Source: Prolixibacteraceae bacterium
GTDB taxonomy: Bacteria; Bacteroidota; Bacteroidia; Bacteroidales; Prolixibacteraceae
Assembly (NCBI GenBank): GCA_028683385.1
Contig: JAQUIJ010000002.1
Coordinates: 1-64,000, forward strand
DNA length: 64,000 nucleotides
Direction of reading: 5' to 3'
Shown here: piece after piece, positions 31,608 through 42,608 of the stretch
Numbering within the stretch: the first letter of the stretch is position 1
Layout: each line of letters begins with the position of its first letter
The notes under the pieces: model-generated
The model's input: only the letters and a program-made list of their open reading frames with translations
Database searches by the model: none
Told to the model about the DNA's origin: nothing
Program-made: the position numbers and the translations under genes

Positions 31608-33035
31608 TTATTTTCCTATTGAATATAGTTCAAATCCTATTTTTTGTAATTCTATTTTATCCAGAATATTCCGTCCATCAAAAGCAAATGCTGGTTTCAG
31701 CATATGGTTATAAACCTGTTGCCAGTTATAAGTTTTAAACTCCTCCCATTCAGTAAGAATCGCGATAGCATGAGCATCAGCCATGGCTGCATAAGGATCA
31801 GAATGAACATGAACGTATTGAAGGATTGAAGGATCAAGTCCTGAAACAAGTTCAGAATGACTTTCTCCATAAGTGGCAGATTGAGATTGTGTTAGGTATT
31901 TTAAATCGCGAAGAATTTGGTCCTTGGTCACTTTGGGATCGTATATATGAATCTCTGCTTTGTCTTGCAATAATTCCCAAGCTACATATATAGCGGCAGA
32001 TTCGCGGGTGTCGTTGGTGTCTTTCTTAAATGCCCATCCTAAAATTGCTATTTTTTTACCTGAAACGGTATTAAACAGCGTATCGATAATTTGTTTGGCA
32101 AATCGGTGTTTTTGATAATCGTTCATTTTAATAACCTGTTCCCAGTAATCGGCAACTTTGGGCAGATTAAAATGGCGACACAAGTAAACCAGATTCAGAA
32201 TATCTTTTTGAAAACATGAACCTCCGAAACCTACTGAAGCTTTTAAAAATTTTGAGCCAATACGGCTATCAGCACCTATTGCTTTGGCAATTTCATTGAT
32301 ATCTGCTCCTGTTTTTTCGCATAATGCAGAAATCGAATTAATACTTGAAATACGTTGTGCCAAAAAAGCATTGGCCGTGAGTTTCGAAAGTTCACTGCTC
32401 CATAGATTAGTTTGAATAATCTTTTCGCGTGGAATCCACCGGGCATATATTTTAGCCAACGTATCGATAGCTCTCAATCCTTCCGGTGTTTGATCGCCTC
32501 CAATTAATACCCTGTCAGGTTGGTATAAATCTTCAATGGCAGTTCCCTCAGCCAAAAATTCCGGATTGGAAAGAACCTGAAACCGCAAGCCTTTAGTATT
32601 ATTACTTAAAATGGTTTTAATGGATTGGGCAGTACGTACAGGTAAGGTAGATTTTTCAACTACGATTTTATTTCCTTCAGCGACATTGGCAATCTGACGG
32701 GCACAAAGCTCTATGTATTTTAAATCTGCAGCCATGCCATTACCAACTCCATATGTTTTGGTTGGGGTGTTCACCGATATAAAGATGATGTCTGCCTTTT
32801 GAATGGCTCCTTCCACATCGGTTGAAAAGAAAAGGTTTCGGTTGCGGGCTTTTTTGACCACTTCGGCCAAGCCAGGTTCATAAACTGGAAGATTATTCAG
32901 ATCTTCGTCATTCCATGCGGCAATTCGTTGTGGATTAATGTCCACAATGGTAACTTCAATATCCGGACATTTTTCCGCGATCACGGCCATAGTCGGTCCG
33001 CCAACATATCCGGCGCCAATACAGGTAATTTTCAT
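31608..33035 (-). CDS. UDP-glucose 6-dehydrogenase with a repeat-derived insertion
   Basis: NAD-dependent enzyme of 475 residues that oxidises UDP-glucose to UDP-glucuronate. It resembles the long animal-type form: [42 protein letters not shown], the catalytic Cys in [10 protein letters not shown], and [17 protein letters not shown] chose the ATG at 33035, where MKITCIGAG begins; in-frame codons further upstream are unconserved. Between QILRDLKYL and [17 protein letters not shown], residues ~385-410 contain [17 protein letters not shown], encoded by a palindromic sequence (31841-31855 stem) of the kind scattered between genes. Adjacent UXS uses the product. Confidence 0.93.
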
Positions 33036-33247
33036 GTTAATGTTAAGTGATAAAATGATCAATGTTTTGAATTAATTTCAGATTGCTTTGTTATCCTTTA
33101 TCGCTCGCCTGGGGTGGGCGGTTGTAAATGACGAGTATGAATTAATTTATTGAAACTTGGTGTCTTTTTCGCCAACAAGGATTTAGGAAATGTTTCGTGT
33201 TGCGTTCTCTTGTGTAATCGGCCTTTTTTTCTTCGGAACTAAATGGT

Positions 33248-33541
33248 TATTTGGATTAAACACCGTTCCGAATGGATTACAACAGGACTTAATTGGATTT
33301 AAACTCCTTTAGAATGGATTGCAACTGTCAATAAATGGATTTGAAGTCCTTTAGAATGGATTTAAACTGTCTTTATATAGATATGAACCCGTCTAGAATG
33401 AATTATAACAGGCATTAAATGGATTTAAACTTCTTCAAAATGGATTATCACGGAGCTTAAATGGATATAAACGGTTCTGAAATGCAAAAGAACTGTCATT
33501 AATTAGATTGTACTTCTTTCAGAAGGAAACATGTCTTCTTT
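33248..33541. repeat. Degenerate 21-bp tandem array with 42-bp alternation
   Basis: Fourteen consecutive 21-bp units with no indels from 33269 onwards (and one more before it with a small shift). Units starting at 33269 + 21n alternate between two types: one beginning TAAATGGATTTAAAC and the other AGAATGGATTACAAC-like. The shared core is AATGGATT...AAC. Each unit differs from its neighbours at several places. There are no spacers, so this is not a CRISPR. It lies between UDP-glucose dehydrogenase and an unknown gene, and reads through stop codons in its obvious frame. Confidence 0.85.
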
Positions 33542-33614: not shown

Positions 33615-33649
33615 CGGATACCCTAGTGTTGTTATACTTCGGGTATCCG
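33615..33649. terminator. Hairpin near the end of the unknown gene at 33674
   Basis: CGGATACCC (33615-33623) pairs with GGGTATCCG (33641-33649) around a 17-nt loop. On the plus strand it is followed by ATTTTTC; on the minus strand, the direction of the operon, there is no T-run. It may still pause or stop capsule transcription, which would fit a locus run by an antiterminator. Confidence 0.5.
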
Positions 33650-33673: not shown

Positions 33674-34429
33674 TTATTCGGTAGCATGACTTTCGGGATC
33701 TTTAGCTGCCGGTTTATCTTCTTCCGGTTTGTCGACTCTGCGAACCTGTTTTAGCAGATGAGAGAAGGTGTAATCGTTTAGTTTCGCCTTATCGGTTGTT
33801 TTATACAGGATTTTACCGATTTTGCAGATTTCAGTCAACTGGTCGTAGAGATCATTCAACAGGTCGACGTTGGTTTGCACCAAAGCAGCCCGGTTCGAAG
33901 TGAGCGCATATTTTTTATTTTTGTCTTCGGCCAGCGAGGTAGCGGCATCGCTAAATTTAGCGGTTAGCTCCTCTGTTAAGCCTTTCGCAGTCAGAGCCAC
34001 TTTGTACTTCTTCAGGTTGCTTGCCACCGTGCGTAACAGATTCAACGCGTTTTCCACATCATGCGAGCGGGCGCTTTTTCGGAGTTGTACCAGTCCAAAG
34101 TCAGCTGCAGAGATCGGGATGGTATTGCCAGCCAGGTCGACGTAACCTTCTACGTAATTAATCGGTGAAAATAGTCCGTCGAGCGTTGAGTAAATACGTT
34201 CGGTGATAATTTTCTGCTCAACCGTTTCCGATTTGGGTTGAACCAACTCTTCCACCGCAGCAATTTTTGCTTCGTAAGCGGTGAGATAGGCCTCATTAAA
34301 CATTGGTGAATAACCGGTAAAATCTGGCAGATCGCGTCTTAGGTTTTGTACCGAAAAGCCACAAATAACGGTCAGTTCTTCATTCTTGCAGTTGTAACTG
34401 CGTAGTGCATTTCCATTCATTGTCATCAT
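33674..34429 (-). CDS. Unrecognised helical protein in the capsule locus
   Basis: Protein of 251 residues that I do not recognise. It has no signal peptide or membrane segment. After an N-terminal part with YNCKNEELTVICGFSVQNLRR-like order (split by polar residues) it is rich in Ala, Leu, Lys and Glu and looks helical (~residues 45-230), with an acidic C-terminus (DKPEEDKPAAKDPESHATE). There are three Met codons in the first four; the exact start is uncertain. It lies between the Wzz-like gene and UDP-glucose dehydrogenase but is separated from both by long repeat-rich gaps, so it may be an insertion rather than a capsule gene. Confidence 0.65.
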   Translation of the reverse strand: MMTMNGNALRSYNCKNEELTVICGFSVQNLRRDLPDFTGYSPMFNEAYLTAYEAKIAAVEELVQPKSETVEQKIITERIYSTLDGLFSPINYVEGYVDLAGNTIPISAADFGLVQLRKSARSHDVENALNLLRTVASNLKKYKVALTAKGLTEELTAKFSDAATSLAEDKNKKYALTSNRAALVQTNVDLLNDLYDQLTEICKIGKILYKTTDKAKLNDYTFSHLLKQVRRVDKPEEDKPAAKDPESHATE

Positions 34430-34879: not shown

Positions 34880-35995
34880 CTACTCATTCCATTTTTCCTT
34901 GATGTCTTTCAAATATACTTTTCCAAAGACCATTCCAGTTCCAACAATTCCTCCCAAAAACAACCAGATGAATACAATCATTGGTTTCTTTGGTTTCGAT
35001 TTTTCGCGTGGCACCATAGCCGGCTCCAAGATGGAAAATACCGGTGTTTCTTCCTTCACCTGTATTTTGGCTTGCTCCAGTTGTTTGGCCAATTCGTTGT
35101 AAACGTTCATGGCAATGGTATAATCTCCCTGTAAGCGCGATTCTTCGGTACGGGCAACCGCGCTGGTTACATTCTTGTTTTGATCACTAAAAGAAGCAAG
35201 TCGGATCTGCGCTTTTTCAAATTCTTTTTTCTTTTCCTCGTAGCGTTGTTCAATGAAAGACAGCTTATCTGATGCCTTTTCGATTTTAAAACGGGTAATG
35301 TATTTCTGGAGCAATTCGCGGGCCTGATCTGCTACCTGTGCCGAAAGCAAAGCTTCGGGGAAAGCGGCCTGAAGGGTGATGAAACCTTGTTTGGAATCTA
35401 AATTGATGGTTACCTGTGAAGCAATCATCTTCCGAACTTTTTCTTGTTTTTGAGTTAATGCAATGGGTCCTATATTTTCGGAAATTGTTTTCTGTTCAGA
35501 ATCGCCTTTGATCGCTGAAATAATAACACCTGGAAGACCGATGGTGTATTTGCCAATCAATGAGATAACGCTTGGTCTGGAGATTTCACTGTAATATTCG
35601 TAAAGGCTTACCGGATGATTCACTTCAGCAAAACTGAAAGGAATATTCATCAGATCCATTTGAAAAGGAACGGATGAAACAATTTCAGGATAAACCGTAG
35701 GAGAAAGTATCTCTCCGGAAGTCGCATTATCGAGATTAAATCCGGCCATTGCTGCCAACGAAGATAAGCCCCCCAGCTTGCTTGTTGATGAGGACGTTTG
35801 GGGAACGATGGTTGTGGTTGCCGTATATTCTTTGGGCGACAGCAATGCAATTGCAACTCCCAGAATTCCTGCAATAAACATTGTTTTAAGAATGATGCTT
35901 CGGCCATTCCAAAAGGTTTTTGCCAGTTCCAGCAAATCTATTTCGTCGTCGTTTGAAGCCGCAGGTTTGGGATTGGAGGTTGGTAGGGTGCTCAT
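34880..35995 (-). CDS. Wzz-like chain-length determinant protein
   Basis: Inner-membrane co-polymerase of 371 residues. A membrane helix follows the N-terminal cytoplasmic tail (~residues 36-55, TMFIAGILGVAIALLSP), and a second helix lies at ~340-360 (MIVFIWLFLGGIVGTGMVFG), preceded by the proline-rich PREKSKPKKP that marks the Wzz family. The periplasmic region is helical with coiled-coil-like heptads (SDKLSFIEQRYEEKKKEFEK). No C-terminal Walker kinase domain is present, so it is a kinase-free Wzz rather than Wzc. It would control polymer length together with the Wzy-like protein and the SLBB exporter. Confidence 0.88.
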   Translation of the reverse strand: MSTLPTSNPKPAASNDDEIDLLELAKTFWNGRSIILKTMFIAGILGVAIALLSPKEYTATTTIVPQTSSSTSKLGGLSSLAAMAGFNLDNATSGEILSPTVYPEIVSSVPFQMDLMNIPFSFAEVNHPVSLYEYYSEISRPSVISLIGKYTIGLPGVIISAIKGDSEQKTISENIGPIALTQKQEKVRKMIASQVTINLDSKQGFITLQAAFPEALLSAQVADQARELLQKYITRFKIEKASDKLSFIEQRYEEKKKEFEKAQIRLASFSDQNKNVTSAVARTEESRLQGDYTIAMNVYNELAKQLEQAKIQVKEETPVFSILEPAMVPREKSKPKKPMIVFIWLFLGGIVGTGMVFGKVYLKDIKEKWNE

Positions 35996-36475
35996 GTATG
36001 GAGTTATGAATTATGAGTTATAAATTATGAGTGTTCAATGATTGATTGTTGAAGAACTAATGGATTGAAGGACTGAAATAATGATTAATTGTCAATGATC
36101 AATGGTTAACTGGTAAAAAGGCTTGATGGTCATTAATACTTTATAGTTCATCATTCAATGCCACTTAGTTAAGACTGAAAGCCTTTGATCTAATTCCACA
36201 GGGCAACGCCCTGTGGAAAAATGGGACATATCAATCGAATGGGCTGTCTCAAAACTCATTGATCCCGTCATCCTGAACTTCCTGCCTGCTTGCTTGTCAT
36301 GCGGGGTTTCAGGATCCCAACGCATTGTATGTCAGATCCCGAAATACCTGCCAGCCGGCAGGCTGGAATTCGGGATGACCCGATCCTCGATCATTTTGAC
36401 TTTTGATACAGTCTCGTTATATTCATCCCATTCAGGGCTTAACTAAACGAATTTAATTATCATTACTAATCCTTT
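35996..36475. repeat. Repeat-rich gap with a perfect hairpin and a MITE-like segment
   Basis: The 480-bp gap holds a simple ATGAATTATGAGTTATAAAT-like run (36003-36030), a perfect 11-bp stem TTCCACAGGGC-aac-GCCCTGTGGAA (36194-36218), and a segment (36237-36433) bounded by GAATGGG/CCCATTC with inner TGTCTCAAAA/TTTTGATACA and GTCATCC/GGATGAC pairs. The last may be a MITE or nested palindromic element. No gene is seen. Confidence 0.55.
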
Positions 36476-42554: not shown

Positions 42555-42608
42555 AATAAAAAGTTCGGAGTGTCTAAAGTTCGGAATGCCTAAAGTTCCG
42601 ACTCCAGT

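Follow-up and report, generated by a model that had tools for sequence, protein, structure and literature searches.

The iteron arrays of plasmids, with their Rep protein, and the centromere arrays of partition systems consist of tandem protein-binding sites that lie beside the gene of their binder. In type III toxin-antitoxin systems, a repeat RNA gene precedes that of the toxin, the two being separated by a terminator, and the REP/BIME elements are associated with RAYT transposases. We report here on an array of 21-bp units in a Prolixibacteraceae bacterium (assembly GCA_028683385.1), within positions 1 to 64,000 of contig JAQUIJ010000002.1 (this whole stretch of 64,000 nucleotides is called the window below), and on the gene that adjoins it. 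The link between the array and the gene is our main result, and was absent from the initial annotation of this DNA. Because most of the relatives that we examined carry a 21-base array of their own, spelled differently, a chance repeat is disfavoured and a two-part module of gene and array is favoured.

The array (33248..33541, no strand assigned) consists of 14 head-to-tail units of 21 bp with a 42-bp A/B alternation, and is non-coding, as judged from direct reading, a repeat finder, autocorrelation, shuffles and the reading frames. In the register that starts at 33269, positions 33269-33541 hold thirteen successive 21-mers with zero indels, and one additional 21-bp unit (33248-33268) precedes them. 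Units resembling TAAATGG begin at 33290, 33332, 33374, 33416, 33458 and 33500, and units resembling GAATGG at 33269, 33311, 33353, 33395, 33437, 33479 and 33521. Degradation is strong in the final three units and worst in 33521-33541; summed over the 14 units there are 97 mismatches to the consensus, and conservation is uneven among the columns of the unit (z 4.0). Over 33241-33541, the autocorrelation is 0.49, 0.64 and 0.62 at periods of 21, 42 and 84, respectively, and does not exceed 0.40 at any period of 5 to 109 outside the multiples of 21. The top 200-bp stretch reaches 0.70 at period 42, compared with 0.42 elsewhere in the window and with a maximum of 0.425 in 200 shuffles of two-base blocks. 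Tandem Repeats Finder likewise called the array, in 42-, 84- and 21-bp versions. The indel-free run of thirteen units with one preceding, and its alternation, had been described in the initial annotation, and both the reading and the computational re-measurement of the phase agree with that description.

A pattern search of the own genome for the window unit, which the initial annotation had proposed, returned scattered single matches only at up to 3 mismatches and no second array; the best of these matches, on contig C17, is not within an array. Rfam gave zero matches in the whole window at the gathering score, and a DNA-similarity search for the array across the taxonomic family gave short weak hits only. 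One such weak similarity led to an array at L041:1390-1550 (G040:C1), with best periods of 41, 61 and 20. Searches against plasmids and phages were without result, apart from one 45-bp match to a Priestia plasmid, as were searches of viral contigs (single proteins); one locus with a 22-residue match was taken as spurious. The window holds further short tandem repeats at 36001-36032 and 42560-42598, with periods of 14 and 16.

The array lies 3' of a minus-strand gene (33674..34429), the 251-aa product of which is all-helical and belongs to an uncharacterised family, as judged from annotation, profile searches and a structure model, and 132 bases separate its stop codon from the array. Direct reading of this interval revealed a 9-bp inverted repeat (CGGATACCC / GGGTATCCG; 33615..33649, no strand assigned), at which the terminator scan made no call on the gene strand. 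On the minus strand the order is a Wzz / chain-length determinant protein gene (34880..35995), the 251-aa gene, the array and, on its far side, a UDP-glucose/GDP-mannose dehydrogenase family gene (31608..33035); both flanking genes are minus-strand Pfam assignments and are given as context only. In the window's subfamily and its kin, five loci (the window, L110, L111, L118 and L129) have a nucleotide-sugar dehydrogenase gene close by; we read these as exopolysaccharide clusters. A conserved partner gene was sought at 56 loci, and no neighbour family occurs at more than 6 of the 56.

The 251-aa protein is unmatched in Pfam at E 0.001, where chance-level matches begin at E 0.026, and unmatched in NCBIfam, PHROG and PADLOC. 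Its AlphaFold2 model is all-helical and confident (pLDDT 92.5), and a fold search with this model recognised no fold (best E 0.44 in the PDB and 0.21 among viral structures). No DNA-binding domain was recognised in the window protein or in the relatives searched. The proteins beside arrays are mostly acidic, with a median pI of 5.4 across 64 of them and 5.8 for the window protein. Each of two PADLOC models of anti-phage defence proteins matched one of 23 relatives, with best E values of 5e-5 and 0.002.

Used as a single query, the window protein detected homologs in 24 of the 100 genomes searched from its taxonomic family, and a 23-member alignment detected them in 61 of 140. An array of period 21 or 42 lies within 1.5 kb of the gene at 65 of 113 homologs of this taxonomic family, and with the same 113 genes the pairs of periods 19/38, 20/40, 22/44 and 23/46 each gave none and 24/48 gave two. 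The 113 genes derive from 114 of 145 homolog rows, the 31 omitted rows being mostly weak, partial or at contig ends, and including a gene fragment in L129, which carries an array. The calling of arrays relied on autocorrelation at 21 or 42, each gene was given one row in the tally, and since the homologs are kin by descent, all these counts are non-independent. At the threshold used, 48 of the 113 homologs are without an array; with a more sensitive score, 21 is the best of nine periods in 21 of these 48, clearly so in about seven. Elsewhere in the phylum (41 of 48 search rows outside the own genome), 31 of 41 homologs have a 21/42 array, every one 5' of the gene, arrays are missing at 10, and the other pairs of periods give 0 or 1 of 41. 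The initial annotation had proposed that the strict phase reflects selection on spacing, which is largely borne out by this recurrence of the period with mostly unrelated units. One exception to the period is an array of period 41 beside a gene of G030 (L066). In the same genome, two paralogs 2.8 kb apart (L117:1463-2191 and L117:4964-5686) are without a 21/42 array, and the first adjoins an array of period 41.

The only named family weakly related to several members of the window protein's family is PQLLE (NCBIfam NF052641), to which 7 of the 23 members of alignment A1 gave weak matches; the three inspected in detail are all below the curated cut-off of 80 bits, and the window protein itself has no match up to E 1. 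All three PQLLE loci above the NCBI cut-off, from 2 of 247 genomes, have arrays of period 21 or 42, L270 barely so (0.58). The family name was not found in our search of the open-licence literature.

The 67 arrays called in the taxonomic family are 105-442 bp long. Two branches of the protein tree (107 of the 113 proteins, midpoint root), one being the window's, have them on the 3' side of the gene, and others on the 5' side; the side is clade-specific, being identical in all 191 protein pairs with at least 45% identity. The 5' arrays end 66-392 bp ahead of the gene in 30 of 31 cases, and the 3' arrays mostly start within 200 bp of the stop codon. Of 789 units, 695 are in register, a figure that is partly circular since the arrays were called by period. 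Within arrays the units differ by 7.1 mismatches per 21 bp, i.e. about a third of the positions are off consensus, and conservation is uneven among columns (mean z 2.6, with z above 3 in 25 of 67 arrays). A CGGAA core is found in 12 of 59 independent arrays, for 1.1 expected, and GCGGA in 9 of 59, for 0.9 expected; by count, the window array is not among the carriers. Dyad symmetry is weak, with p at or below 0.05 in 9 of 67 arrays.

Unit sequence is common to close protein relatives only, and the period is common widely. The mean similarity of the unit motifs, computed for the proteins of the tree, is 0.66-0.69 for protein pairs with at least 60% identity and 0.41-0.45 at 45-60%, and about 0.3 below 45% (0.29-0.31 below 20%), except for five same-genome pairs at 0.41. 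The same-genome pairs, few in number (58), behave like pairs from different genomes, so that the code goes with the protein rather than with the host genome. The nearest array pairs differ mostly by whole units, L092 and L093 as well as L095 and L100 by a single 21-bp block. In the alignments of 15 array pairs, 7 of 95 gaps are multiples of 21, against 4 of 6 in the six closest pairs; the other nine pairs, more diverged, gave loosely gapped alignments, whose gap lengths we judged uninterpretable. The initial annotation had offered recent amplification of a 42-bp unit as an alternative to selection; the whole-unit differences between close arrays speak for its amplification part, and the steps are of 21 bp.

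The homolog genes are under purifying selection: across 15 gene pairs, which include two from the array-less clade, dN/dS is 0.03-0.32, the synonymous sites being near saturation in some. Gene and array duplicate jointly, as in G029, where 1170 bp comprising the gene, the array and a terminator are present at two places with 93% identity. The array-less clade is a fully supported group (100/100) of nineteen genes, one of them in the own genome, and is syntenic, its neighbours being common to 13 to 15 of the fetched loci. Its syntenic members include L162:7844-8548 (G000:C23), L249, L255, L257, L258 and L262, and the group adjoins a gene for a typA/bipA-like GTPase, which we take to be typA/bipA, and a second conserved gene. 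Outside the taxonomic family, the proteins of L137, L152, L146, L156, L157 and L147 have the helical domain followed by C-terminal beta domains, undetected by Pfam in the members scanned; in L137, the one case modelled, these are tandem fibronectin type III domains according to the model and Foldseek.

Arrays of similar period are not confined to the vicinity of these genes. Of the 64 arrays detected within 600 bp of protein-family genes (97 kb), 62 have a period of 21, 41 or 42; the corresponding figure for the other 872 kb of the fetched regions is 10 of 18. This comparison covers 968 kb, in which some regions overlap and were counted twice. A background control relied on 20-kb stretches picked by position, the protein family being disregarded. 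The own genome, sampled over 400 kb, yielded zero arrays. The 400 kb sampled from G113 contained five loci, of period 41/42 and all orphans with no protein-family gene, and 360 kb from four further genomes contained three arrays; in half of the eight, the best period is 41 rather than 42. At that density, simple arithmetic predicts an array within 1.5 kb of about 2% of genes by chance. The background rate is thus above zero, because orphan arrays exist, mostly in the genus of G113 and G114. In these two genomes, orphan arrays of period 41 or mixed 41/42 were seen at L284:7686, L291:17720, L349:9290, L351:6871 and L353:8787, the unit of L291 being also that of an array beside a protein-family gene in L102; two arrays of period 22 in G113 are at L278:5723 and L292:3336. 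In G113, moreover, two arrays at other places, of which one lies 13 kb from a different protein-family gene, share the unit of one module's array, and the array unit of another module is found in two further places.

Several explanations other than a module of gene and DNA array have to be weighed. A tandem array whose sequence goes with a single adjoining protein gene is what one would expect if the repeat transcript bound or neutralised that protein in the manner of type III toxin-antitoxin systems, an explanation that we consider quite unlikely. The 5' position of the arrays in the wider phylum would suit it, as would the folding of the RNA of 5' arrays, for which the mean z against 20 shuffles per strand is -2.0 for the gene strand and -0.9 for its complement; the 5' arrays may have an RNA role. 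In the 3' arrays, by contrast, there is no folding signal (mean z about 0). An intrinsic terminator beyond the array, with which the array would be transcribed, is present in 2 of 31 3' arrays, but in 6 of 31 a terminator parts the gene from the array (5 of 31 in a cruder scan), and among 5' arrays a terminator ahead of the gene was found in 0 of 30. A crude test found no strict TA..TTTG promoter before or after the 5' arrays. The orientation of the arrays relative to the gene is also variable: for the 64 similar pairs out of 2145 array pairs, the best match is in the same orientation in 46 and in the opposite one in 18. Thus, L204 matches L216, L227 and L231 at 0.70-0.72 in opposite orientation and at 0.24-0.31 in the same, and in the orthologous arrays of L095 and L100 sites with TCACC at multiples of 21 bp give way, after 31 bp, to inverted GGTGA sites at a distance of 21 bp from one another. 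On balance, a DNA-level role is favoured, as the orientation of the units is variable and some arrays are cut off from their gene by a terminator. The wide divergence of the units and the lack of a fold match to a known toxin also stand against an RNA partner. Past the array and the terminator, we observed a hairpin around GGTGACTCCAAGTCACC at L114:7889-7921 and L115:1-40, the copies of which show paired changes; its core matches in 9 of 268 loci.

One might also think of a mobile or recombinogenic element, or of a minisatellite hot spot, that accompanies the gene, has no binding partner and owes its phase to amplification. This would agree with the same-unit arrays at several sites of G113, the joint duplication in G029, the whole-unit differences between close arrays and the lack of arrays in the syntenic clade, which has no signs of mobility. 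We nevertheless regard it as unlikely, because neutral slippage would be expected neither to give unrelated units the same period beside homologs throughout the phylum nor to leave the column profile uneven, and the register is kept though a third of the positions differ, with the proviso that the arrays were called by that register. An architectural element, in which any sequence repeated at each two turns would give a planar bend used by a general nucleoid protein, would account for a shared period with mostly unshared unit sequences and for the position of arrays on either side; it leaves unexplained, however, the placement beside one gene family, the conserved core columns and the enrichment of CGGAA, and we rank it below the RNA explanation as improbable. 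Since 21 bp equal seven codons, the array could finally be a decayed coding sequence with heptad repeats, which the initial annotation had named as a finding that would refute its own reading. This is scarcely credible for the window array, since every one of its six frames is interrupted by 4 to 12 stops, leaving no open frame through it, and a codon-position pattern is absent; a stop-free frame in some of the other arrays is expected for any 21-bp unit that lacks a stop.

We tentatively prefer to read gene and array as a two-part chromosomal module, in which a phased, putatively DNA-binding array functionally belongs to the adjoining gene, and we consider this possible rather than probable. 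The array would be double-stranded recognition DNA, and its partner half the adjoining gene for an all-helical protein of about 240 aa. Each array would offer some five to twenty copies of the site (fourteen in the window) spaced two turns of B-DNA apart, and proteins bound at successive sites would lie on one face of the DNA and assemble side by side and cooperatively. We propose such a face-on assembly because the two-turn spacing is constant while the sequence varies with the adjoining protein. The site would be private to its module and drift along with the protein at a constant spacing, and units would be gained and lost as whole blocks of 21 or 42 bp. That a protein is bound to the array, as the initial annotation had suggested, is plausible, although the proteins of the adjoining genes are mostly acidic. 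The module's own product would be the first candidate, though that it is itself the binder is less likely than the tie between the phased array and the gene. The outcome would be local, either autoregulation or a nucleoprotein anchor, and may partly extend in trans to other arrays in the genome that have the same unit. Against the module reading stand the mostly acidic proteins, in which no DNA-binding domain was recognised, and the existence both of homologs that have no array and of orphan arrays, as well as the RNA folding of 5' arrays, the period-41 exceptions, the weak dyad symmetry and the gaps in the more diverged pairs, few of which are multiples of 21. A broader version is doubtful: a phylum-wide set of orthogonal protein-DNA pairs, with an unrecognised fold, private two-turn arrays, action in trans on same-unit arrays, co-diversification of protein and code, and one lineage that was domesticated, array-less, next to a typA-like gene.

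If the module reading is true, an uncharacterised protein family gains a testable job, nature provides a library of mutually distinct protein-array codes, and there is a reason for the fixed spacing in a class of repeats between bacterial genes that might be taken for minisatellites. Even with a wrong mechanism, the tie of a gene family to a 21-bp period demands an explanation.

Compared with the systems described above, REP/BIME elements and their RAYT transposases are alike in having gene-linked repeats plus orphan copies elsewhere, and differ in that the protein of the module has no Pfam transposase match, the unit is private to its module and the phase is 21 bp. Type III toxin-antitoxin systems, such as ToxIN (PMC8860590), share a tandem repeat array beside one protein gene. 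The module protein, in contrast, is all-helical with no PDB match at E 0.001 or below, a consistent RNA fold and a fixed array orientation are lacking, the window array is 3' of its gene, and the 5' arrays have no terminator before the gene. PQLLE proteins are remote relatives whose members carry 21/42 arrays, the window protein being unmatched by their model (cut-off 80). No title returned by our searches of the open-licence literature describes the gene-array module, and for iteron/Rep systems, type III toxin-antitoxin systems, REP/RAYT, Rfam RNAs and coding repeats alike, one or more of the defining features tested are lacking here; the module, with its putative mechanism, appears to be undescribed. 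From iteron and centromere arrays it differs in lacking a Rep or Par match and a known DNA-binding domain (no replication initiator was matched by the window protein in Pfam, NCBIfam or PHROG), in having arrays either 5' or 3' and in the several different codes per genome. The contig that bears the window array is 531 kb long and could be a large replicon, with the window protein unmatched among plasmids. The likeness to these arrays lies in tandem sites about two helical turns apart beside the gene of the presumed binder, and the window array, in which binding is putative, has this iteron-like spacing between direct repeats. The module may resemble an iteron or centromere array in its working.
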